Assembly: GCA_016788215.1 (NCBI GenBank)
Contig: JAEUSJ010000013.1
Location: forward strand, 1 to 32,072
Source: a bacterium
GTDB lineage: Bacteria; CLD3; SB21
DNA length: 32,072 bases
Reading direction: 5' to 3'
Shown here: positions 2,737-19,092 of the stretch, one piece after another
Position numbering within the stretch: the stretch's first letter is position 1
Layout: the number at the start of each line of letters is the position of its first letter
Program-made: the position numbers and the translations under genes
The notes under the pieces: generated by a model
Databases searched by the model: none
What the model was told of the DNA's origin: nothing
The model's input: the letters and a program-made list of their open reading frames with translations, nothing else

Positions 2737-4518
2737 CTATGGCTTAAAAATGGTAAGGTCGTCAAACGCAATTTTTACTTCAGGCAAAACCGCAAGACCG
2801 ATATTCCCATATATGAACGTATCATCAGTGACTTCAGTTATCTGTTGGTCATTTATATAAAGTGTGAAACGGTTTCCGGTACATTTTGCGGTCAGTATAT
2901 TGACTCCTTCCGAATTGATCGCCTCGGAAAAGTCCCACGGCGCCAGATATTTCCAGTTTGAATTGACGTATTTGCCGAAAGCATATTGCCGGTGTTTATT
3001 TATAAAAAAAATATATCCGTCCGTTGCGGTTTTAACGCGCACCATCAATCCGTAGCCGCTGGCTGCAGAGCCTTGAAGCCACAGTGTTCTGACAGAAGCG
3101 GTGAAGTCATAATAATCCTTATCGAGCCATGACGAACTACCGTAAACAGAATCATACATTATATAGGCACCGTTCTTCATGTAATTATTGTGATCTTCGA
3201 ACCATTCATTGTGACCGACGAAATTTTCATAGAACATTAGTTTGGGCGTCGTGGGCAATTCAGATTCCGTCACCATCTTTTCGCGATGGTAGACTGAGCT
3301 GACGTGTCTAACATCCGAATCAAAGACACCGTCATGATCCAAATCTACCCATCCGATTTGCGCACGGGTACGGTCGCATAAAAAAAGATCATTAGATTTC
3401 ATCATGCAGGCATCTTGAATCTGCTTGCCTGGGTTTTGCAGGCCTGCCATGTCCAAAATTGAAGCGGTATGCTGCGTGACTCTATTTTCGTACTCATCTG
3501 TTGCGTTGAACACATGTCCTGTTTCGTGCGCAATTACCTTCCAAATCTGATTATAGCCCCAGCCGTTACATTTGTTCGGGATGACCATATACGGGCCGCC
3601 TACATAGGCCCACGCGACTCCGGATTTATTTCCGAAATAACCATCGTCATCGTTTTGTGCAGGCACAACAAATATTAAAAAGGACCAGTCGGTTTTATAT
3701 TGCTTTCTCAAAACCTCCGAATAGGCACGGGTCCGCTCATAGTCTTCACCCTCAGTATAGCCTAATTGGTTCATACAGTCTTTGACCCAAACCGAGCTTT
3801 CTTCTCTGCTTCGTGTTATGGGTTCATATCCGGTAGTGCACCGTTTGATATCATACGTCCAAGACAGATTTGCGCGATAACCTCCCGCCTGCGACCACCA
3901 CTCCATGGCACCGTAAATTTGCTCGGTAATATGTTCCATATCATTTGGCGTCCATGTCTCGGTCTTAGGGTCCGTAGTTCCATTTGATTCTACAATAATT
4001 ATTCCCACACTTACCGACCCAATTAGGTAGTCGCTCGTGTTTAAATTTTTCGAATTCAGTATTGCTGATTTATTATTCGCAGCGGTTTTCGTGGGCCTGC
4101 GAGGGATTTCGCCAGGGTTTATTTTTATAGCAATTTCATGCGGTTTTACAGTGGTGATGAATAATTTGTTCCAGTTGCTGACACCCATTTCTTCTGCCGT
4201 ACTCATGTCTTTCAGAGTTCCTGGATCAATCGGCTCTTCCGCAATGAGTGTGATTATTCCGCTTAAATTTAAAGCTAATTTACTTTTTTCGGTAAGATAA
4301 GCTTGAAGGATCCGAGGTGGGTATATATGAACAACATGTCCGCCGTTGGACTCAATAACTAATCTTGTTGGTTGGAGCTGGCCGGTATCTTTCAGGACGA
4401 TGAGAACGCGTTTTCCTTCGAAAGCGGATTGTCCGCATAAAACTGAAGTGAATAAGATGAAATAAAACAGCGTAGTGAGGTAAGTTAATACTGATTTAGT
4501 AAATGGCTGCGAGCGCAA
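2737..4518 (-). CDS. Secreted zincin-type metalloprotease with C-terminal lectin-like domain
   Basis: Probable exported zinc protease of 593 residues. Hydrophobic residues about 10-28 form a signal peptide. A pro-region-like segment (about 34-105) precedes the catalytic part, which carries HETGHVFNATDEY at 331-343: two His ligands, the catalytic Glu332 and a DEY that may supply the third ligand. The C-terminal 165 residues look like a concanavalin/LamG- or DUF1080-type beta-sandwich (FYENF start, FDDLTIF end), often used for carbohydrate or surface binding. A longer reading frame exists, but it overlaps the upstream gene; a TTG start at 4518 fits better because AGGA lies 5 bases before it and the signal peptide then begins at residue 1. 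It starts one base after the upstream stop, implying translational coupling to the kinase/phosphatase gene. The exact peptidase family is uncertain. Confidence 0.85.
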   Translation of the reverse strand: MRSQPFTKSVLTYLTTLFYFILFTSVLCGQSAFEGKRVLIVLKDTGQLQPTRLVIESNGGHVVHIYPPRILQAYLTEKSKLALNLSGIITLIAEEPIDPGTLKDMSTAEEMGVSNWNKLFITTVKPHEIAIKINPGEIPRRPTKTAANNKSAILNSKNLNTSDYLIGSVSVGIIIVESNGTTDPKTETWTPNDMEHITEQIYGAMEWWSQAGGYRANLSWTYDIKRCTTGYEPITRSREESSVWVKDCMNQLGYTEGEDYERTRAYSEVLRKQYKTDWSFLIFVVPAQNDDDGYFGNKSGVAWAYVGGPYMVIPNKCNGWGYNQIWKVIAHETGHVFNATDEYENRVTQHTASILDMAGLQNPGKQIQDACMMKSNDLFLCDRTRAQIGWVDLDHDGVFDSDVRHVSSVYHREKMVTESELPTTPKLMFYENFVGHNEWFEDHNNYMKNGAYIMYDSVYGSSSWLDKDYYDFTASVRTLWLQGSAASGYGLMVRVKTATDGYIFFINKHRQYAFGKYVNSNWKYLAPWDFSEAINSEGVNILTAKCTGNRFTLYINDQQITEVTDDTFIYGNIGLAVLPEVKIAFDDLTIFKP

Positions 4519-4519
4519 G

Positions 4520-7108
4520 TTATTCCTGTGACACGGGTCGCTCGGTTTTTTCAGGTTCTGATTCGCCTGTTTTTCGTTGTTGAAGTATTCTGTCAACAAT
4601 GGAGTCGGTTGAGCCGCTGCTCTTGATGACTTCACCGTCCATGGTGAGAAGAGGCGTTCCGGGTAATTTGAATTTCCGTTTTGATTTAGTGCGTTGTGTA
4701 ACAAAGGCCTGACGTTTCTCTTGAGTGTTTAACCGCATACGAATCAGTTCATCATATATACGTTTTTCAGATAATACGGTAAATCCATATTTTTCCGTAT
4801 TCATCATGTCGCCGATCAACTTCGGCCCAAGATCGGGGTTTTCACGAATAATATCGAAAATTTTTGCCTTTTGTTCTATGCTTAAATGCCGGGCTTCGAT
4901 ATCGGAGCCGTCGTCCTTGTTCCTTAATCCTTCATCTCCTAATTCGGCAAAACGTTTTTTATATTTGTAGTACGTTGAAGTTGAAATTCGTGCCTTCTTA
5001 CAGGCATCTTTAACGCTCATGCCGCCTGCTACATCATCGAGGAGGGTCTTGCGTAAATTAAACAAGACGTCACCGGAGGCCATATTCTCTTTAATTGCAA
5101 CAAAAGTTATGTCGTCGTTTTGCGGGGCGCCTTCAGTAAACGACAAAATCTCCTGACGCATGTTTTCCACAAAACCCTTGGCGTCATTCAATGCAAATCT
5201 TCGAATACTCTCGAGAAAACGTTCATCGCTAAATAGGTCGCGGTTCGTATTCATCGCTTCCGTGATTCCGTCTGTATACGCAATGAGAACATCGTCCTCA
5301 AGCAGCTTGATGCTGTCGGTTTGAATGGATTGGCCGAACAATTTACGATCCGGCAAAGAAATGCCTACCGGAAACCCGCGGGGGTTCAAATAATAGGTTT
5401 GTTTCGTAGACGCACGGTGCAGGATCATCGGATTATGGCCGGCGCTGGCGTAATGAATGGTTCGATTTCGTGAATCCAGAATAATATAGAACATCGTAAC
5501 GAACATTCCTTTTTTCATGTCGTCAACGACAAAATCGTTGACACGCGCCAGCACATCTCCGGGGTTTTTGTTTCCACGAGCCTCAAGCCGTAATGCGGTT
5601 CGAATCATAGTCATAACTAATGAGCCGGGAACGCCTTTACCGGAAACGTCAGCCACAACTATTCCGATGGTATCTTCATCGACGCTGATAAAATCAAAAA
5701 GATCACCGCCGACTTCTTTTGCGGATTCATAATAGGTGGAGATATCGTAACCCTGTACTTCAGGAAAACTGGTCGGGAGCAGCATATGCTGAATTTCCTG
5801 AGCAACCTGGATTTCTTTTTGAAGCTGTTTCTGCTGAACAAGGCCGATCTGGGCTTTACGAAATTTGGATGCCATGTCGCTAAAAGCCTGCGCGATTTCA
5901 CCGACTTCGTTCGTAGTGTCTATATCCATATCATCGGTGATCGTCTCATGGCCCGCTGATCGGATCCAATCGGTTAGCTTTTGGAACGGACTGATAATAC
6001 GCGCAACTAATATGGCGATTCCGGAATAACCCAATAGAAGAATAAGCGTAGCAAGCACGATACCCAATAGTTTCAACGTCGCCATTTCGCTTTGAATCGT
6101 TTGTTCCTTTACAATGACACGTGAATATCCCAGTAAGTTTTGCTGATCAATTATATTAGAACGATAAATTGGCGTATGGACGTCAAAAACATATTCATCA
6201 TCCCACAGATATTTGTATATCTGTGCAGTCTGTAGAAGTGCCGGGTTAGATATTTTTTCAGCCAAACTGTCCGGCAACTCTTGGCCATCCTGAATTCCTT
6301 GAACCTCAATTACTTCATAATCTGAGGGAATCTCATATTTACCCAAACTCTGCCGCCTGGACGACGCAAAAATACGCTCCTCTTTGTCCACAACGAAGAC
6401 GTCAACGATAAGGTTCTCGTTCTCTTTTTTAAGCGCATCAACAATCTGGAAAACGGACAGGTCATTGAAATCTGCCATATATTCAGAGCTTGAAGTAGAG
6501 GTAGTCGCGGAAATGGCCGTAATTCGCTTTAATATCTGACCCTCCAGGTTTTCCGTCTGAACTTTCTGAAATGCAATGTATCCTGCAACGACGAACAACG
6601 TCAAAGCGGCTGAGGAAATGATGGCATATCGGTTTCTAAGGTTGACCTGGCTTAAAAATGTTTTTCGTTTCGATTTTGCAGTACGATATTTGACAAGGCG
6701 TAATTCGTTACCTTCGCTCGTTACCTGATAGTCAATTTCATCCATCAGCTTTTGGAGCATGAAAATACCAAGGCCGCCTTTCTTGCCGATCTTGATATAT
6801 TCCTTCATGTCCGGAGCTTTGGCATTTCGTGGGTCGAAGGTACGTCCCTGATCAATCAGCACAATGGTGAGGCTTGATGTCTTGACGATCGAACGCATGG
6901 TGACAAAGCCTCTTCCCGGAGTCTCTCGATAGGCGTGGCGAATGATGTTAGTCACCGCTTCATCCGTGGCGAGCTTTAACGAGCCGATAACCTTGTCGTC
7001 AAATCCGTTTTTCCTTCCGATGTTAACCACAAAATCACGAAGATCGGCGAGATACTTCATGTCTGCAGGAACTTTCAGTTCTTCTTTATGTGAACTCTTA
7101 AACAGCAT
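4520..7108 (-). CDS. Membrane RsbW-like kinase / sensor / HAMP / RsbU-SpoIIE phosphatase / HTH fusion
   Basis: Single 862-residue signalling protein. Order: GHKL ATPase of the anti-sigma-factor (RsbW/SpoIIAB) type at 10-140 with N-box DEAVTNIIRHAY (49-60), DQG at 86-88 and GKKGGLGIF (108-116); membrane helix 160-180; extracytoplasmic sensor about 181-343; membrane helix 345-369; HAMP about 366-420; SpoIIE/RsbU PP2C phosphatase about 450-672 with metal-binding GGD (467-469), D487 in ADVSGKG, SAGHNP (555-560), D613 in YTDG and NDD (664-666); then a helix-turn-helix region (about 685-800) resembling the paired DNA-binding domains of IS3/IS481-type transposases, and a charged tail. All kinase and phosphatase motifs look intact. 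In known partner-switching systems such domains set phosphorylation of an anti-sigma antagonist; no separate STAS protein or sigma factor is in this window. It follows the PorV/TPR gene by 17 bases. The HTH fusion is unusual. Confidence 0.93.
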   Translation of the reverse strand: MLFKSSHKEELKVPADMKYLADLRDFVVNIGRKNGFDDKVIGSLKLATDEAVTNIIRHAYRETPGRGFVTMRSIVKTSSLTIVLIDQGRTFDPRNAKAPDMKEYIKIGKKGGLGIFMLQKLMDEIDYQVTSEGNELRLVKYRTAKSKRKTFLSQVNLRNRYAIISSAALTLFVVAGYIAFQKVQTENLEGQILKRITAISATTSTSSSEYMADFNDLSVFQIVDALKKENENLIVDVFVVDKEERIFASSRRQSLGKYEIPSDYEVIEVQGIQDGQELPDSLAEKISNPALLQTAQIYKYLWDDEYVFDVHTPIYRSNIIDQQNLLGYSRVIVKEQTIQSEMATLKLLGIVLATLILLLGYSGIAILVARIISPFQKLTDWIRSAGHETITDDMDIDTTNEVGEIAQAFSDMASKFRKAQIGLVQQKQLQKEIQVAQEIQHMLLPTSFPEVQGYDISTYYESAKEVGGDLFDFISVDEDTIGIVVADVSGKGVPGSLVMTMIRTALRLEARGNKNPGDVLARVNDFVVDDMKKGMFVTMFYIILDSRNRTIHYASAGHNPMILHRASTKQTYYLNPRGFPVGISLPDRKLFGQSIQTDSIKLLEDDVLIAYTDGITEAMNTNRDLFSDERFLESIRRFALNDAKGFVENMRQEILSFTEGAPQNDDITFVAIKENMASGDVLFNLRKTLLDDVAGGMSVKDACKKARISTSTYYKYKKRFAELGDEGLRNKDDGSDIEARHLSIEQKAKIFDIIRENPDLGPKLIGDMMNTEKYGFTVLSEKRIYDELIRMRLNTQEKRQAFVTQRTKSKRKFKLPGTPLLTMDGEVIKSSGSTDSIVDRILQQRKTGESEPEKTERPVSQE

Positions 7109-7125: not shown

Positions 7126-9123
7126 CTATTTCTTCCGCAAATTATTTTGTTTCTGCACGCGCAATTGTTCTTCTGCCTTATCCACAGCTTTAAGAACGCG
7201 TTTATTTAGAGGGTCTTTTTCCAGAATTCTCTGCCAGATAATGATCGCCTGCTCATATTTGCCTTCGACATAAAGATCGACGCCCTGTAGATATGTTTTT
7301 TCCTGGTCGCCTTCCAGATTCTTAAAGGTGGCAAAGCCTCGAACAATTGATTTTTTGTGATATTCTTTTACCGTTTCATTGCTCGGATCGATGAGTAGGG
7401 CCTGTTCAAACGCCTCCATGGCGGCCTGATAATCCGCCTTTTGATAAGCGTCCAAACCGCTTCGTGTTGACTCGAGAAAACTAAGTCGGTTACTGATTTT
7501 CTTAAGTTCAGTATCAATCTCTTTTTGAATGGTCTGATTGGTCGGATCAAGGCCTCGGGCTTCGCTCAGAAGTTTTAACGCCTCCGCAAAATTATTTGCA
7601 GCCGCGCTGGATCGTGCTTTAGCAATATAAGATCCGATCTTCTGATCTAAAAGTCCACGGGTCTCGTTCAGGGCTTTTGCAAGTTCTGAATTGTTTGGAG
7701 AACGGTCTAATGCATTCTGGTACTCACTGATGGCACCAAGGTAATCGCCCTTTTGAACGAGTTGCGAGCCTTTCTTGTAATGATCCCTGATGAACTTGTC
7801 GTTTTCTTCATTAATCGTAAGCGACTTGACCGCGTTGGCCGTATCGGAAAGCTGTGCCGCTAGTTGTTCGTCCATCAGCATGTTTACGCTGTCAATGTAA
7901 TATTTTGCCTGTTCGTTGGCCGGGTCAAGCTGGAGAACCTGTTCAAATTGAACTAAGGCGGGGAGCAGTTTGTTGTCTTTAAAAAGTTCTTTACCTTGAG
8001 CATGATGTTCTTTGAGCGCACGGGCTTTTGCCGCTTCCTGATTTTTTGTGATCAATTTCTGATCTTCCTCAAGTCGCTGGGCGCGCGCGATCTGAATTTT
8101 TTCTTCTACAGTCTTGCCGAAGTTCATGGTCAGCGACAAACGATGCAACGGTGTTCCAAACGGATTGCCGATATTAACGGAATAGTCCACCTGAAATCGC
8201 TGGAATTGATTGAACTCTGTGCCCATACCGACAGTCATCTGTCCTGCCATCAATCCGAGGCGGGCGACAAGAAAGCGGTTATATGTGAATTCAGCGCCGA
8301 GATTAAACGACGGGCTGGGTGTTTGTTGATTTTTATTCATGTCGACAGCCAGCGTAAATTTCTTTAACGTCTCATCGCCAAAGAAAATATCTTTTGCGAT
8401 GCCGAATTTAATATTATAAGGGTCGGTATCACTTAGGTCCACCAACTTGATGCTAGGCCTCACCACATTCTGAAAATTTAGTCCGACGGATAAATTACGC
8501 AAAATGGTATTGTCATAATCAGGGCGCCACATGGCACCGATATCGAGACCGAATCCTGTACCGGATACCGTGTTTACCTGGTCGCTCACTAGATTTGCAG
8601 ATGAAGTGTGGTCTACCTTAAAAGTGGTTCCCAGCGCCAATCCAAACCATGGCAATTTCTTTCCGTACGAAAAGTAGTACTCCTCTTTGGTCCATGATTG
8701 ATTTGAGGAAATCACGGTAAAATCGTTTGTAAGACTTATACCGTCTACACCAACCCTCGCAACGCCTACGCCGACCGAACCGAATTGGACAAAAGGAAAT
8801 GTGACGCTTGCGAAATTGTAGAAACTTCCAGCAACAAGTGTTGAATGAAATAAGACGAGATTGGACTGACTCAAATAGTCAAGACCTGCAGGATTCCAGA
8901 ATACAGCGGAACCGTCATTGGCCGTCGCAACGAATGCATTGCCAAATCCTTGAGCCCGTGCACCCATACCGGTTTCAATAAAAAGACTCTGAGTGCCATC
9001 TGCCGGTCCAATCGTTTGAGCATCAATTTTTGAACTACTCATCGTAAACATGGCGAAAATAGCGACCAATACGAAAACTCGCAAAACAGTCGACGAGATA
9101 TATTTTAACAAACGTCGGGGCAT
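7126..9123 (-). CDS. PorV/PorQ-type outer-membrane barrel with C-terminal TPR repeats
   Basis: Protein of 665 residues. A signal peptide (hydrophobic 13-29, cleavage probably near DAQ at 34-36) is followed by FIETGMGARAQGFGNAFVA and a GSAVFWNPAGL motif at 71-81, the signature of PorV/PorQ/UPF0164 barrels. The barrel runs to about residue 335 (ending near LSLTMNFGK). A charged linker leads to about five TPR-like units (roughly 370-655), each with a DP/SP-N turn such as LDPANEQA, LDPTNQT and IDPSNET. PorV in Bacteroidota is a type IX secretion shuttle, but no other T9SS gene is present, so a secretion role is only a possibility. The TPRs should face the periplasm and bind partners. It heads a tight operon with the kinase/phosphatase fusion and the protease. 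Confidence 0.92.
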   Translation of the reverse strand: MPRRLLKYISSTVLRVFVLVAIFAMFTMSSSKIDAQTIGPADGTQSLFIETGMGARAQGFGNAFVATANDGSAVFWNPAGLDYLSQSNLVLFHSTLVAGSFYNFASVTFPFVQFGSVGVGVARVGVDGISLTNDFTVISSNQSWTKEEYYFSYGKKLPWFGLALGTTFKVDHTSSANLVSDQVNTVSGTGFGLDIGAMWRPDYDNTILRNLSVGLNFQNVVRPSIKLVDLSDTDPYNIKFGIAKDIFFGDETLKKFTLAVDMNKNQQTPSPSFNLGAEFTYNRFLVARLGLMAGQMTVGMGTEFNQFQRFQVDYSVNIGNPFGTPLHRLSLTMNFGKTVEEKIQIARAQRLEEDQKLITKNQEAAKARALKEHHAQGKELFKDNKLLPALVQFEQVLQLDPANEQAKYYIDSVNMLMDEQLAAQLSDTANAVKSLTINEENDKFIRDHYKKGSQLVQKGDYLGAISEYQNALDRSPNNSELAKALNETRGLLDQKIGSYIAKARSSAAANNFAEALKLLSEARGLDPTNQTIQKEIDTELKKISNRLSFLESTRSGLDAYQKADYQAAMEAFEQALLIDPSNETVKEYHKKSIVRGFATFKNLEGDQEKTYLQGVDLYVEGKYEQAIIIWQRILEKDPLNKRVLKAVDKAEEQLRVQKQNNLRKK

Positions 9124-9181
9124 ACCTATAGCGTAATAATGAGTGAATGTCTAAAGATTGGAACTCTTGAATATTTATAAA

Positions 9182-9210
9182 AAGATAGGATAATAGCTGC
9201 GTATTTGCAA
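9182..9210 (-). promoter_or_regulatory. Candidate promoter for the PorV-like operon
   Basis: In the 139-base gap after hflX the minus strand has TTGCAA (9210-9205), 17 bases, then TATCTT (9187-9182); both boxes match four of six consensus bases. Transcription would start about 50 bases before the ATG at 9123. This is the only larger gap between 2737 and 19092, so a new transcription unit beginning here is reasonable. Confidence 0.4.
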
Positions 9211-9262
9211 TAAAAAACTAATAAAAACAATCAAATAAACTCAAAAAAATATTTGCCCACGG

Positions 9263-10555
9263 TTACAAGATCTTCAACCTGTCTTTGTTCTTATTTTGAT
9301 AGTCCTGAATTTTTTCAGCATCCTGTTTTCGGGAGCGAAATCTGATTGTGGTTGTCTTGCTTTTATGTTTTGTATCTATTATTTCCGCCAAATAATGTAC
9401 CATTGAAAACAGTTTTCCGTCGGCATTGTCTATCGTAATTGTTCTGATGACGTAATCAGCATTAATTTGTTTTATAATAGCATGCTTCAATTTGTCCAAA
9501 CCAATCTTTCGCTGCGCGGAGATAAACAGCGCTCCCTTAAATTCTTTTTTCAATTGCGACAGCAAGGCTTCGTCGGTTACTTTGTCGACCTTGTTAAACA
9601 CGATCATCATGGTGTCATTGGTTGCTTCCAGTTCTTTAAGAACCTGATTTACGGTTTCCATTTGTTCATGGAACTGATGATTACCGATATCCACGACATG
9701 CAGCAGAATATCGGCCTCTCGAACTTCCTCCAGTGTGGAACGAAAAGATGCAACTAAATGATGGGGGAGTTTACGAATAAATCCAACAGTGTCGGTAAAG
9801 AGACACGGATAATCGTTATCGAGGTGAACGCGCCGAACCGTGGCATCCAGAGTGGCAAAAAGCCGGTCTTCGACAAACACGTCAGCATCGGACAAAGCAT
9901 TTAGAAGAGTCGATTTACCTGCGTTAGTATAGCCTACGAGCGCGACTTTAAACATCTCGTCGCGCGTAGCGCGCTGAGTCTTACGCTGTTTTTCGATTTT
10001 TTTGAGTTCTTCTTTTAGAACGGCAATCCGGTTTCCTATCAGGCGTTTGTCCGTTTCAAGCTGAGTTTCTCCCGGACCTTTAGTGAAAACCCCGCCGCCT
10101 GCCTGGCGCTCAAGATGCGTCCACTGGCGTGTTAGGCGCGGTAGCAAATATTCCAGCTGCGCCAATTCTACCTGTGTTTTGGATTCCTTGGTTCGTGCGC
10201 GTTTTGCAAAGATGTCCAAAATAAGCGCGCTCCGGTCGATGGTTTTACATTTAACTTCTTTTTCAATGTTTTTGGTCTGGCCCGGTGAAAGATCATCGTC
10301 AAAGATCACAACCTCGATATTGTTTTCAAAAACCTTTTGCGCAATTTCATGAACTTTACCTTTGCCGATATAAGTTGACGGATCGACGTGTTTCAGGTTT
10401 TGGGTTGCGGTATCGACGACGTCCACGCCTGCGGTATCGGCCAATAAAGCTAACTCTTCAAGAAAATCCTCGACCGGAACCGTATCCTGGGGATGTGATA
10501 TCCCAACAAGTAGTGCGCGTTCTTTGACCTGTTTTGTTGAATGCGATTTATTCAA
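9263..10555 (-). CDS. hflX: GTPase HflX
   Basis: Ribosome-associated GTPase that binds the 50S subunit and splits or rescues stalled ribosomes, notably after heat stress in other bacteria. The 430 residues are normal. The HflX N-terminal domain has the TYIGKGK motif (61-67) and a glycine-rich segment with PGETQLETD (161-169). The G domain follows: GYTNAGKST (208-216), DTVGFI (255-260) and NKVD (321-324). The start is TTG at 10555, with AAGGA about 9 bases upstream; no ATG fits the conserved N-terminus. It lies 14 bases after the DUF2130 gene and ends the maintenance operon. Confidence 0.95.
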   Translation of the reverse strand: MNKSHSTKQVKERALLVGISHPQDTVPVEDFLEELALLADTAGVDVVDTATQNLKHVDPSTYIGKGKVHEIAQKVFENNIEVVIFDDDLSPGQTKNIEKEVKCKTIDRSALILDIFAKRARTKESKTQVELAQLEYLLPRLTRQWTHLERQAGGGVFTKGPGETQLETDKRLIGNRIAVLKEELKKIEKQRKTQRATRDEMFKVALVGYTNAGKSTLLNALSDADVFVEDRLFATLDATVRRVHLDNDYPCLFTDTVGFIRKLPHHLVASFRSTLEEVREADILLHVVDIGNHQFHEQMETVNQVLKELEATNDTMMIVFNKVDKVTDEALLSQLKKEFKGALFISAQRKIGLDKLKHAIIKQINADYVIRTITIDNADGKLFSMVHYLAEIIDTKHKSKTTTIRFRSRKQDAEKIQDYQNKNKDRLKIL

Positions 10556-13049: not shown

Positions 13050-15908
13050 TCAATTTCGCCGGCAGAGTGAAATGTATTCGCAATTACGACAGCGCGTAAC
13101 GTCCTCGGTTTGCATGAATGCCGTTTGCGGATCTGTAACCTGCATCAAAAGTGTTTTCAAAACCTCTTCAAATTCCGAAAATAATTTTCCGTCAAGCGCA
13201 GTTGTGCCGTTAACCGATACCGGTTGTATCCCACTGGTCAGCTTCTTAAAAGGATGCACTGCAGAGACCATTTTGGGGTCGGACAACATTCCGGCGCGTA
13301 CGTAAATATATCCGTACATTAATAATTGAAAGCTCTTTGCAAGTCCCGGATCGCTGATGAGTTCGGAAAGTGCGCCAACGTTGAGTTCCTTGCTATCGAC
13401 CCGGCCTGTTTTGTAGTCGATTATAAAGAGATTTGATCCGACGCCGTCGATCCTGTCCATTTTTCCCTTTAATCTAACGATTTTTTTTTGATCATTCAAT
13501 TGGAAGTTAAGATCGCATGAAACTTCTTTCTCTAGAGCCAAGACGTGAACGGTTTTTCCACTTTGCTCGATGTCTGCTATGCGACGGGCTTCGAGTTTTA
13601 GAAAGTTCATGATTAGTTTTATTCCGACCTTGAGCATCAAATGATTTTTCCCGTGTTGGATGTCTCCGTTTTTAAGAAACCGCCGGAAAGCCTGTATCAA
13701 AAGCGGCTGAGCTTTGGCCGCCATTCCATCGACATCCTTTGACGTAATTATCTTTTCCTCGAAAGGCCTGTATAAATTTTCAAGAGTAAAATGCATTGCG
13801 CTTCCGAATGTTCCTGCCTCAATGGTTTCCTCGGTTTCGTCAGCTTCAGTTAGGCGAACAATGTATTTTAAGTAAAATTTGAGAGGACAATTAATGTAAG
13901 TATTTAAGGCTGTCGGGGAGAGGCCTTTCTCGAAAAGGTGGTCTATTTGCCGCACAACCCGTTCATTCTTACCTATTTTTATTTCAGCATCGGCAACGGC
14001 ATGCGCCGAAAATGTGCCGCCGGACAAAAAACTTTCCTTGATGTCGGCCGACTGCATGTGGGCATTAAACTTCGGCAGTTCAAAAATTAGCTGAGTAATA
14101 AATCGGCTCCGCTCGCCTTTGCCGAAATCGTCAGTTTCGGAATTATAGATCAGATAAATATTTTTAGCGCGTTGTATGGAGCGGTAGAAATTATACGCGA
14201 AAATGGCGTCTTTCTCTTTATGTGTGGGGAGGCGGTACGCCACCTTTATATCAAACGGAATCATCGATTGCTGGTTTTTTGAGGCGGGTAATATGTTTTC
14301 ATTCACAGACAACATAATCACATTTTCAAAATCCAGCGTTCGCGTTTCAAGCATTCCCATAACCTGCAAACCTTTAAGCGGTTCCCCCGAGAATGGGATT
14401 CGTTCGGAAGAGAGTATCTCCGTAAGCAGTAAACGCAGGTTTTTTAAATCCAAAGGCGTCTCATGGGTTTCTAACAGCGATTGTAATAAACGGATGGTCG
14501 AAAAGAAGCGGAAGAAAGACTCTAATTCGAAGTCCCATTGCGCTGTTTTTTCGACTGTTGCAATTTCTCGTAGCCATAGGGCAATGTCCAGCATGGAATG
14601 CAAAGCATACCGAGAATGGTTCCATTTGACAAAAAATATGTTTTTATATGAAGAATCTATTTCCTTAAGGAAAGTTTCTATTTCCGATGGACTTATGAAA
14701 AGGATGTTTTTTGTAATTATATCGCGTATCAGCCGTCGGCAGGCGTGGGTATTTTTTCGTTCGTTGCTCCCTTGAAGAAGGGGATGGCTCAAAATGGAAA
14801 TGACATCCTTATGATAGAATTTTGATTCCACGTTGCCATCGGTATCCTGGAACTCTCGTGCATTATCCTGCAAATCAAAAAGGGATTCGATCAAACTGTA
14901 AAGTGGGGTGAATTTTAAGGAAAGCCCCATACTGACATTGATGTTTTTTATCGATTCCGGAATGGAATGAAGCATGGGAAACAGCAGCGATTCGTCGGCC
15001 AGAATGACGGCGGTATTATTGATCTCAGCATCTGCATTATGTATTTTTTCTAAAAGATCGCCGGCCACCTTAGCCTGCCCGACGTGTTTTGCCGCGCCAA
15101 TAATGTGGATCTTCTTCCTTTCGGATAATAGAAAGTCTTTTTCCCATTTCGGATTGCTGATTTTCCATTCGCGCAGATATTTTCGAATATAATGCCCGGC
15201 TTCCTGTTTGTCATTGCGAATGTAATAGGCATCCATATCCCAAATGACGTCCGCGCGTTTCATCTTTATCAGCGACTTGAATATTTTTTCTTCCGAAAGG
15301 CTCAGTGCATTAAAACCTGCAAATATGATTTTTTTCCAAGTTTTTTGCGCGATCTTGCGCTCAATATTTTCTGCCACTTCCCGCAAAGCCATTCCTTTAT
15401 AAGCCATATGCCTCTGAATCAAATGTTCACGGAGTCCTTCATAAAGAGGTTCAAATGACTCCCAAAACCGGAGATACTGCAATTGGAAATCCGACAAGGC
15501 ATTTCCGTCAGGATCCCACTGCTCAATTGCTTTTGCTTCGTTAAGATGATGAAACAATTTGTCGGTCGGAACCAAATATGCATCGATCTCGTCAAAGTCC
15601 TTTAAGAGAATTTCTCCCCATTGTGCGAAATGATCGAATGAATCTGATCCTCCGGTTTTCTTATAGACTGTATAGAACTCAAATAAGAGTAACACCGGTT
15701 CGATGATCTGAACAGGGTTCAGTTCCAAAATAAACTCTTCTATAGTCAGCACTTTTGGAGCCCAAACGGTCTGCTCGATTTCTGCAGCCAGGAAATGTTT
15801 AAAGTACAGACATGCGCGGCGATTTTGAAAAACGATGCAAATCTCGCCGAGATCATCCAGGTGGCGGGAATAAATGTCTTTTGCTAGTTCTGATAAAAAC
15901 GAAACCAT
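13050..15908 (-). CDS. AddB/RexB-like PD-(D/E)XK nuclease subunit
   Basis: Second subunit of an AddAB/RexAB-type double-strand-break resection enzyme. The 952 residues are helicase-like in length, but no Walker A motif is visible near the N-terminus (ICIVFQNRRACLYF), so this subunit likely does not hydrolyse ATP. The C-terminal RecB-type nuclease has Asp818 in GKMDRIDG and IDYKTG with Asp831/Lys833. Cys674 (NCPLKFYL) with Cys940, Cys943 and Cys949 (CRNCEYISLC) forms the four-cysteine iron-sulphur signature of AddB-like nucleases. It begins one base after the stop of the AddA-like gene and ends two bases before dgt. The AddB assignment rests on architecture and neighbour. Confidence 0.9.
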   Translation of the reverse strand: MVSFLSELAKDIYSRHLDDLGEICIVFQNRRACLYFKHFLAAEIEQTVWAPKVLTIEEFILELNPVQIIEPVLLLFEFYTVYKKTGGSDSFDHFAQWGEILLKDFDEIDAYLVPTDKLFHHLNEAKAIEQWDPDGNALSDFQLQYLRFWESFEPLYEGLREHLIQRHMAYKGMALREVAENIERKIAQKTWKKIIFAGFNALSLSEEKIFKSLIKMKRADVIWDMDAYYIRNDKQEAGHYIRKYLREWKISNPKWEKDFLLSERKKIHIIGAAKHVGQAKVAGDLLEKIHNADAEINNTAVILADESLLFPMLHSIPESIKNINVSMGLSLKFTPLYSLIESLFDLQDNAREFQDTDGNVESKFYHKDVISILSHPLLQGSNERKNTHACRRLIRDIITKNILFISPSEIETFLKEIDSSYKNIFFVKWNHSRYALHSMLDIALWLREIATVEKTAQWDFELESFFRFFSTIRLLQSLLETHETPLDLKNLRLLLTEILSSERIPFSGEPLKGLQVMGMLETRTLDFENVIMLSVNENILPASKNQQSMIPFDIKVAYRLPTHKEKDAIFAYNFYRSIQRAKNIYLIYNSETDDFGKGERSRFITQLIFELPKFNAHMQSADIKESFLSGGTFSAHAVADAEIKIGKNERVVRQIDHLFEKGLSPTALNTYINCPLKFYLKYIVRLTEADETEETIEAGTFGSAMHFTLENLYRPFEEKIITSKDVDGMAAKAQPLLIQAFRRFLKNGDIQHGKNHLMLKVGIKLIMNFLKLEARRIADIEQSGKTVHVLALEKEVSCDLNFQLNDQKKIVRLKGKMDRIDGVGSNLFIIDYKTGRVDSKELNVGALSELISDPGLAKSFQLLMYGYIYVRAGMLSDPKMVSAVHPFKKLTSGIQPVSVNGTTALDGKLFSEFEEVLKTLLMQVTDPQTAFMQTEDVTRCRNCEYISLCRRN

Positions 15909-15909
15909 T

Positions 15910-18900
15910 TTATATTTTTTCTAGTGTTTTTTCGTCCGTGAAAATCAAATATTTTTCGACTGAGGAATAGCCCATACGATGAATTGCTTCGGCGTATTGA
16001 TTAAGTTGAATAACATAATTTTCATTTTGCATTTGTCCGGTTTTATAATCAATGACAATGGCGTCCTTGTTCTTAAGAATAACCCGGTCAATACGCAGCA
16101 TTTGCTTTTCGGCCAAAAATACTTCCGCTTCGGTTTTTACTGTGAGTCCGGGTTCAAAAAAAGGCCTGATGTTATCTTGACCTAAAAGTGAAGTTAGGTT
16201 TTGTTCTAACCGCAAGCTAAGCTCGGAATTAATCCATCCGGTTATTTCAAGTTCCTTAACGGCGTTATGAATATCTCCGACGGTAATAATTTTTGACAGA
16301 GCGGCATGGACAATATTACCCCACTCTGTTTTGCTTATTTCTGTCTGAGGCCAAAATTCGCTCGCCGTTTGTTTAATCCTTATTCTTGGTCGCCAGGAGA
16401 TTGAAGCAGGAGATGTGATAATATACTCGGATACCGTGTTTCGTGATTCCGGCTTTATGTGCGGTGCCTCGTCGCCAAAGTCATAAAATGTCGTATTAAT
16501 ATCCCATCGCGATATAGACTGCAGAAAATGAATAAATAGCGCATTTATTGAATGATTATTGTCGGGCACCTTCCGAACCCCGCTGCAAAATATATGAAGA
16601 CGCTGCTTTGCGCGTGTGGTGGCAACGTACAATAAGTTCAGATTATCTAGAAACGATTTCCGGACTTCTTCCTCAAATCTTTCTGCAAAATCAGTATACT
16701 TAAGATCTTTCTGACAAGCGACCAACGCATGTTCCAAGTCCGGGGCAAACGGAAGATCGGGTGAGATCCAAATTTCGTCTTTCGTGTTTTCAATTTTCCA
16801 ATCGGCTTTTGGAATAATGACTACGGGAAATTCAAGTCCTTTGGATTTATGAATCGTAAGAACGTGGACCGCATCGATTCCAAATGGCAGCGTGACGGAA
16901 TAACGGGCTTTGTTTTCTTCCCACCAGCCTAAAAAACTATCAATTGAATTGCCTTCCCGGATGGAATACAAAAGCACCACATCCAAGAAATGCTGAACAA
17001 AAAGGTTAGCCTCGCGATTTAATGAAAACGTCGATATTATCGTTTCAGCGATTTCATAGAGAGAAAGGAACGACAGGCTTCTGAAATAGATACTGAAGCC
17101 ATAGGATTCTATTTTTTTGAAAAAATAATCCGGTTCTTTTATTCCAGCAAATGAGTCGTCTAAGACGGCATCCGGGAATCCGGATTGTTCATGCAGATAA
17201 TGGAGTATCTCTGCTTTTGCAATGACGTTGGATGAATTAGTTAGGTGTTGAAATACGGAAACGATAAAACGGACGTCGGAAGATTTGTGAATAAGCACGG
17301 ACTCCGCCGAAACAACAGGAATTCCGTTTTGCATCAAAAAGCCCGCAATGGCTATCGCATCGTTATTCGATCTGGTAAGTATAGCGATTTCGTTTTTCGA
17401 AAACCCTTCTTCACGAAGCGATTCAATCAGGGACATGGTCTTGTCCAAAACATTCTTATTAAATGTATTTTCCTTATCCGGCTCAAGAAAATCTATAGTA
17501 ATGTATCCGCCTGTGTTTTCCGCAAGATGCTGTTGCGAGTGTTTACTATAAATTCCCTTATTGGATAGTTCAGGCAATTGGGAAAGAAACTCATACAACG
17601 CATTGTTAAAATTCACAATATTTTTTGAACTGCGGAAGTTAACTTCTAACAATCTGATATCATGATGCCGTATCAGCGACGCCTCAAATTCAGACACCGT
17701 CGGGTTATCGTCTTCATTACGTAGCTTAGGCAAGAGGGCGAATTGTTCAACATCCCCGTTTCTAAACCGATAGACGGCTTGTTTTCCATCACCTGCAACC
17801 ACGTTTAAATGGCCGGCTGCCATTGAATTATCGACCAATGGAAGCAGGTTAGACCACTGAAGAAGGGAGGTGTCTTGAAATTCATCGATCAGGTAATGTT
17901 CATATTTTTCACCGATGCGTTCGTAAATAAAAGGAATGGATTCCTGCGAAACCACTTTATGAACCCGTCTGTTGAACTCAGAAATTAAAATAATATTCTT
18001 CTCCTGCTTTACTTGCGCAAGCAGATCATTAATTTGATTCAAAACGCTTAAAGAATAAATACGCTGAAGGATAACTCGGGATAGTACATAGTTATTGAGA
18101 TTTTGTGCGACAATATGCTGAATAGATTTGAAATATTCTGTCAATTGCGGTTTGATAGATTCGATTTTTCTCCGATCATTTTCCTGAATTTGTCGGGTAT
18201 ACCATTTATGAGTCTCGATTGACTCTTTGGCATAACGGTTTGGGAATAAATGATCGACTGCAAAATCAGATTCCAATTTCCGAAAATAGCCTGCAATGCC
18301 TTTGCTGCGCTGATAAAAATCCATTTCCGATAGTCCGTTTTGATCGATAAGCTGTACAGCATTGGTCGCTATCGCATTAATTTGCGAGTCGATCTGTCTT
18401 GTAAAGGAAAAAAGCTGTTTACGGACACGTTCAAATATTTCCAGATCCATGTTGTTCAAACTATCGAGGTGCTGTATACTCTCATCGTCTAATAATGATT
18501 TGGCCAGTTTGTTAAGAGGATTTTCGATATGCCAATCTTTCTCATCCTCGGTTTGGCTTTCGACAAATCCGATGAGTGAACGCGTTAGCGGTTCGTTTTT
18601 CCCGACTGAGTCGATCAATAGATCTACAGTTTCCGACAGGATGTGTATCTCTTCGGTTTCAACTTCGAAATTCCACGACAACTTCAGGTCGCGGGCAAAA
18701 TGTCGAACTATGTTATGAACAAAACTATCAATGGTACTGACCGCAAAATCGGAATAGTTATGCAGGATATTTTGTAAAACACGATCGGAAGAGATCACGA
18801 TTTGTTCATCGGTAAGTCCGGTTTCCTTCTGCAAGTCTTGAGATAACGCGGCGGATAGCTTATCCGACGATCGGGAAGAAATGGCTGCCATTGCGTTTAT

Positions 18901-19092
18901 AATACGCGTTTTCATTTCTTCAGCCGCTTTGTTCGTAAAGGTGACGGCAAGGATACGGCGAAAGTTTTCGTCCGATGTCAATGCGATTTTGAGATACTCT
19001 TTGACCAGTGTATAAGTTTTGCCTGATCCGGCAGATGATTTATAAATTAAAAAAGGCATACGTTTGATATGAATGATATTGGTTTCAAGCAT
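15910..19092 (-). CDS. AddA-like UvrD/RecB-family helicase-nuclease
   Basis: ATP-driven 3'-5' helicase with a C-terminal nuclease, expected to process double-strand breaks for RecA. The 1060 residues carry the SF1 motifs in order: Walker A SSAGSGKT (19-26), AVTFTNKAAEEMKTR (motif Ia), LIDEFQDTSLLQW (motif II), VVAGDGKQAVYRFRNGD (III), EVNFRSSKNIV (IV), VHVLTIHKSKGLEFPVV (V) and LLYVATTRAKQRLHI (VI). The nuclease signature VIDYKTGQ lies at 1013-1020. Start choice is uncertain: ATG at 19092 or the Met at residue 12; neither has a good ribosome site. It heads the addA-addB-dgt-DUF2130-hflX run. It is probably the active motor of the pair. Confidence 0.93.
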   Translation of the reverse strand: MLETNIIHIKRMPFLIYKSSAGSGKTYTLVKEYLKIALTSDENFRRILAVTFTNKAAEEMKTRIINAMAAISSRSSDKLSAALSQDLQKETGLTDEQIVISSDRVLQNILHNYSDFAVSTIDSFVHNIVRHFARDLKLSWNFEVETEEIHILSETVDLLIDSVGKNEPLTRSLIGFVESQTEDEKDWHIENPLNKLAKSLLDDESIQHLDSLNNMDLEIFERVRKQLFSFTRQIDSQINAIATNAVQLIDQNGLSEMDFYQRSKGIAGYFRKLESDFAVDHLFPNRYAKESIETHKWYTRQIQENDRRKIESIKPQLTEYFKSIQHIVAQNLNNYVLSRVILQRIYSLSVLNQINDLLAQVKQEKNIILISEFNRRVHKVVSQESIPFIYERIGEKYEHYLIDEFQDTSLLQWSNLLPLVDNSMAAGHLNVVAGDGKQAVYRFRNGDVEQFALLPKLRNEDDNPTVSEFEASLIRHHDIRLLEVNFRSSKNIVNFNNALYEFLSQLPELSNKGIYSKHSQQHLAENTGGYITIDFLEPDKENTFNKNVLDKTMSLIESLREEGFSKNEIAILTRSNNDAIAIAGFLMQNGIPVVSAESVLIHKSSDVRFIVSVFQHLTNSSNVIAKAEILHYLHEQSGFPDAVLDDSFAGIKEPDYFFKKIESYGFSIYFRSLSFLSLYEIAETIISTFSLNREANLFVQHFLDVVLLYSIREGNSIDSFLGWWEENKARYSVTLPFGIDAVHVLTIHKSKGLEFPVVIIPKADWKIENTKDEIWISPDLPFAPDLEHALVACQKDLKYTDFAERFEEEVRKSFLDNLNLLYVATTRAKQRLHIFCSGVRKVPDNNHSINALFIHFLQSISRWDINTTFYDFGDEAPHIKPESRNTVSEYIITSPASISWRPRIRIKQTASEFWPQTEISKTEWGNIVHAALSKIITVGDIHNAVKELEITGWINSELSLRLEQNLTSLLGQDNIRPFFEPGLTVKTEAEVFLAEKQMLRIDRVILKNKDAIVIDYKTGQMQNENYVIQLNQYAEAIHRMGYSSVEKYLIFTDEKTLEKI

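Follow-up and report, generated by a model that had tools for sequence, protein, structure and literature searches.

A membrane kinase/phosphatase with a transposase-like double helix-turn-helix and a candidate STAS partner that shares one of its domains

We identified a multidomain protein in a 32,072-nucleotide stretch of bacterial DNA (hereafter the window; contig JAEUSJ010000013.1 of assembly GCA_016788215.1, GTDB lineage CLD3; SB21). From the N- to the C-terminus, it contained an RsbW-type kinase domain, a transmembrane (TM) segment, a Cache-like sensor, a further TM segment, a HAMP domain, a SpoIIE/PP2C phosphatase domain and a double helix-turn-helix (HTH). A gene for an outer-membrane barrel protein was located 17 bases upstream. 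The features of the locus are as follows.

4520..7108, minus strand: whole gene (kinase-TM-sensor-TM-HAMP-PP2C-HTH), ATG start, 862 aa
6689..7072, minus strand: RsbW/SpoIIAB-type GHKL kinase, residues 13-140 (Pfam HATPase_c_2, 8.9e-27)
6566..6628, minus strand: membrane helix 1, residues ~161-181 (hydropathy; AF2 helix 157-212)
6089..6565, minus strand: extracytoplasmic Cache-like sensor, residues ~182-340 (AF2 fold)
5987..6088, minus strand: membrane helix 2, residues ~341-374 (hydropathy, ~340-375)
5864..6010, minus strand: HAMP domain, residues 367-415 (Pfam 9e-5, just under the cut-off)
5090..5677, minus strand: SpoIIE/RsbU PP2C phosphatase, residues 478-673 (Pfam SpoIIE, 1e-48)
4916..5053, minus strand: first HTH (HTH_28), residues 686-731 (Pfam 1.2e-6, over the cut-off; AF2)
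4685..4888, minus strand: second HTH, residues ~741-808 (AF2; hhalign to the C-terminus of the STAS partner)
4622..4672, minus strand: K..PGTP.LT.DG.VI motif, residues 813-829 (conservation)
7126..9123, minus strand: PorV/PorQ-family outer-membrane barrel with C-terminal TPRs, 665 aa (NCBIfam PorV_fam)

A called ORF at 2737-4704 on the minus strand, with weak matches to metallopeptidases and 3-keto-disaccharide hydrolases, overlaps the 3' end of the kinase/phosphatase gene by 185 bases; its real start probably lies after 4520. Elsewhere in the window, at 13050-19092 on the minus strand, adjacent genes for a PD-(D/E)XK nuclease and a UvrD helicase-nuclease form an AddAB-like pair.

A preliminary description of this DNA had listed these domains, with intact motifs in a single frame, and both Pfam/NCBIfam matches and the invariance of the catalytic residues bore this out. 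The kinase domain matched the NCBIfam RsbW model (E 1.1e-22) and aligned to the RsbW structure 6m36. Residues E50, N54, D86, G88, G112 and G114 were invariant in 37 full-length homologs, and the domain has the GHKL fold with the N-box E/N, G1 DxG and G2 GxG by which RsbW/SpoIIAB serine kinases are recognized in sequence. The PP2C motifs GGD, D487, TDG and DD, including the metal-binding Asp residues of SpoIIE/RsbU phosphatases, were likewise invariant in 37 full-length homologs, and the domain matched the structures of SiaA, RssB, Rv1364c (3ke6) and SpoIIE. In the AF2 model, the sensor region consisted of a long helix followed by a five-stranded sheet and looks like a Cache domain. This assignment comes from the predicted fold and from homologs, such as L069 (sCache_3_2 match of 1e-4, below the cut-off); a Pfam search with the sensor of the window protein itself gave no match.

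The transposase-like nature of the C-terminal region, suggested by the same description, was upheld. Besides HTH_28, Pfam HTH_23 scored over its cut-off, HTH_32 matched residues 712-785 below its cut-off (4.9e-6), and positions 7-116 of the 284-residue NCBIfam IS481 transposase model aligned to residues 691-802 (E 3.2e-12). The IS481 match was below the whole-protein cut-off of that model, as expected for a protein without the DDE part; by Pfam and by coverage of the IS481 model (positions 7-116 only), neither the DDE catalytic part nor an integrase-core family was present in the 862-residue protein. By sequence comparison, the double HTH is related to the IS481 transposase N-terminus. It resembles IS481/IS3 transposases in sequence and predicted fold, and differs from them in lacking the catalytic part and in being joined to a signaling enzyme. 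A check of HTH match and fold set beforehand gave, besides the significant match, a confident AF2 model of residues 676-850 with two tri-helical units (100 residues with pLDDT >= 90). The nearest Foldseek neighbors were TnsB, Pax paired domains and Mos1/SETMAR, all of which are bipartite DNA-binding modules; the best E-value was 0.011 and none was under 0.001. The second HTH is neutral in charge (12 basic and 12 acidic residues), which, together with the weak Foldseek matches to DNA-bound paired-type folds, makes DNA binding uncertain. The HTH-bearing protein also has a basic tail (KSKRKFK). The K..PGTP.LT.DG.VI motif that follows the double HTH was conserved in KSB1 and in the window's family, and not in homologs with fused STAS domains.

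On the kinase/phosphatase, the HTH occurred in every one of the seven family genomes of the window's lineage; both genomes of the sister family lacked it. Outside the family, genome G053 had a copy with 47% identity, and all 82 genomes searched in its phylum gave a match, most of them near full length. We take this phylum to be KSB1, since its copies match named KSB1 loci. About 40 named HTH-bearing loci emerged when GTDB contigs were scanned, mainly in KSB1 and also in Krumholzibacteriota, Latescibacterota and Calditrichota; a search for the same domain order thus recovered it in the family genomes and in these four phyla. Three apparent additional phyla, represented by L066 (a Cloacimonas MAG), L051 (Actinomycetota) and L065 (CSSED10-310), were not relied on because the tree places these sequences among KSB1; they may be mis-binned. 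In a phosphatase-domain tree built by a quick method, the HTH-bearing proteins fell to the same side of one branch (SH-aLRT 88). In a second KSB1/Caldithrix paralog (L070, L071, L072, L073; 1638-1993 aa), the first HTH is weak, the TPR arrays are long and the barrel gene is missing upstream.

These data also bear on the origin of the ORF. Given the transposase-model matches of the HTH and a fragmented MAG (estimated contamination 8.75%), one might have suspected an assembly error or frameshift by which a phosphatase gene and part of a transposase were joined. However, dozens of independent assemblies, spanning several phyla, have the same in-frame fusion, and within the genus the HTH region had a dN/dS of 0.02-0.04. 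An artefact is therefore scarcely conceivable, and the 862-residue ORF is genuine, neither a frameshift nor a chimera; the separate-gene or sequencing-error origin that the preliminary description had named as a risk is refuted.

The upstream protein scored 102 bits against NF033709 (PorV_fam; cut-off 90), which places it in the PorV/PorQ family. Of 36 testable HTH-bearing loci, 34 had a homolog immediately upstream of the kinase/phosphatase gene, as did all seven family genomes (in L011, a contig end leaves only its C-terminal part). The barrel was also adjacent to four sequences scored as HTH-less, three of which were cut by contig ends or runs of N, leaving L077 as the only barrel-adjacent sequence truly without a recognizable HTH. 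Mainly in KSB1, the barrel was preceded by a large protein with Ig/CARDB-like repeats (L054:1-3993, L064:3-3569, L067:2-3988, L095:2-4024 and 28 more loci), several of which had weak C-terminal matches to type IX secretion system (T9SS) sorting domains or PorZ. This repeat protein was not found in the window, and at least 29 matches to T9SS type A sorting domains scored over the cut-off in the window's genome. The suggestion that the protein is linked to the state of the envelope thus gains support from a conserved PorV-TPR neighbor. We looked ahead of the operon for a palindromic binding site and dropped the idea: positions 9110-9270 contained no inverted repeat, and conservation there was limited to AT-richness.

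A candidate substrate was found by gene neighborhood. In KSB1, a STAS protein of ~230 aa was encoded ~100 bp downstream of the kinase/phosphatase (24 of 34 testable HTH loci). The second HTH of the enzyme has a homolog in the C-terminal ~70 residues of this protein (hhalign probability 97.6%, E 3.4e-12; 71 columns with 30% identity). In Krumholzibacteriota and Latescibacterota, three STAS domains were fused after the HTH. The gene is not adjacent to the kinase/phosphatase gene in the window's lineage; the window's genome encodes a full-length ortholog of 237 aa elsewhere (contig C521, 7605-8315; E 9e-85 against the KSB1 family). Of the nine STAS matches in that genome it is the best, and the eight others are possible alternative substrates. 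Full-length STAS-HTH proteins were detected in six of the seven family genomes, and in G053 and G017 the gene was beside the kinase gene. At the same threshold, ordinary STAS matches or none were obtained from the sister family and the remaining genomes searched, and no full-length STAS-HTH protein. Ser58 of SpoIIAA is the phosphorylated residue, and the serine aligned to it (S61 in the STAS-HTH protein) was invariant in 15 sequences. By genetic association, the system has a dedicated STAS partner with a serine at the phosphoacceptor position, as is required of a partner switch, and the STAS-HTH protein is likely the substrate of the kinase/phosphatase. The idea of a one-polypeptide switch is not supported in the form first given: for the window's lineage, the protein that is probably the STAS substrate is encoded separately, on another contig, and only in the Krumholzibacteriota and Latescibacterota homologs is it part of the same chain. 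G017 contained the barrel, the kinase/phosphatase and the STAS-HTH partner, but its kinase had no HTH, which makes this domain dispensable for the core. That core may consist of the barrel, the enzyme and the STAS-HTH protein, with the enzyme HTH confined to some lineages.

Two additional loci are mentioned here. G053 contained a second STAS-HTH paralog (L155:1459-2970) followed by a gene that, by eye, resembles a polysaccharide export protein, which may hint at an output. The window's genome also encodes an ordinary three-gene partner switch with separate kinase, STAS and phosphatase (G000:C585:4996-6812), which offers a natural control.

On balance, we favor a membrane partner switch that sets the phosphorylation of a STAS-HTH regulator, probably with a PorV-type link to the envelope. 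The Cache-like periplasmic sensor would act through HAMP to shift the balance between the N-terminal RsbW-type kinase and the PP2C phosphatase, both of which would act on one serine, the equivalent of SpoIIAA Ser58, of the dedicated STAS protein. Its phosphorylation state would then change the pairing of STAS with the kinase/phosphatase, the DNA held, or both. The output would be the HTH-bearing STAS regulator and not a SigB/F sigma factor, and the PorV-TPR barrel of the same operon would feed in the state of the outer membrane or of type IX secretion. A link to transcription is plausible. As a tentative extension, the switch could be sigma-free, STAS phosphorylation directly bringing a DNA-bound regulator to the membrane or releasing it from there through the shared transposase-derived domain, with the PorV barrel reporting envelope or type IX secretion state in several phyla.

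A more conventional partner switch would also fit part of these observations. The kinase might double as the anti-sigma factor of a sigma-70-type factor, with STAS as the anti-anti-sigma factor and the HTH as an accessory. The kinase and STAS domains do match RsbW and SpoIIAA, HsbR/CrsR-type fusions bind RpoS (PMC6482189), and the window's genome encodes two sigma-70-type factors, both below the SigBFG cut-off. However, no SigB/F/G-type factor exceeded the TIGR02980 cut-off in this 94%-complete MAG, no sigma gene occurred among the conserved neighbors identified, and the HTH common to the enzyme and its STAS partner would be left unexplained. The missing SigB/F/G match and the shared HTH together favor direct regulation by the HTH proteins, and we consider control of a sigma factor unlikely. 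The double HTH could instead be a protein-pairing module, in which the shared second HTH recruits STAS to the enzyme in the membrane, with an output at the protein level, in control of the envelope or of secretion. The occurrence of this domain in both proteins would agree with such a role, as would its neutral charge, the weakness of the DNA-binding fold matches, the TPR extensions in KSB1 and the membrane location of the enzyme. The kinship to IS481/IS3 DNA-binding regions, the DNA-bound transposases and paired domains among the top fold matches, and the basic tail argue against it, and we regard a pure pairing role as somewhat doubtful.

If the favored membrane partner switch is correct, it would provide an envelope-to-transcription route in phyla with almost no studied regulators, and a further case in which a transposase DNA-binding region was reused in regulation. 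The PorV-TPR barrel, the kinase/phosphatase and the STAS-HTH protein form a small set that can be tested. To our knowledge, no other partner switch has a DNA-binding-type domain common to the STAS substrate and the kinase/phosphatase. A search of open-licence PMC articles found nothing on the HTH-bearing form, the STAS-HTH pair or the PorV-TPR operon, and neither the presence of an HTH on each of the two partners nor the operon or the range of phyla appears to have been described before.

The fusion of kinase and phosphatase is already known from HsbR, CrsR and Rv1364c. The classical RsbW/RsbU/RsbV and SpoIIAB/SpoIIE/SpoIIAA systems have kinase, phosphatase and STAS families in common with the window system; however, these are separate proteins with a dedicated sigma factor and without an HTH. 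In Pseudomonas and Shewanella, HsbR/CrsR combine opposing PP2C and kinase/anti-sigma activities in one protein that acts on one STAS protein, HsbA/CrsA (PMC6482189), and in this opposition within one chain they are like the window protein. Unlike it, they are soluble Rec-PP2C-kinase proteins that control RpoS/FlgM and have neither a membrane sensor nor an HTH, whereas the order in the window protein is kinase-TM-Cache-HAMP-PP2C-HTH, Pfam detected no receiver domain in it, and its STAS partner has an HTH. In Rv1364c of M. tuberculosis, a single chain comprises sensor, phosphatase, kinase and STAS domains (PMC9138534), and the protein resembles the STAS-fused forms of Krumholzibacteriota and Latescibacterota; it differs from the window protein in its soluble PAS sensor, its domain order, the lack of an HTH and its SigF target. 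For the envelope side, the closest comparison is PorXY-SigP with PorA/PorV of P. gingivalis, in which a CTD protein on the cell surface binds PorV through its CTD and, upstream of PorXY-SigP, signals inward to control T9SS genes (PMC7712824). PorXY-SigP is a two-component system with an ECF sigma factor, without kinase/PP2C/STAS or HTH, and its likeness to the window system is one of analogy only.
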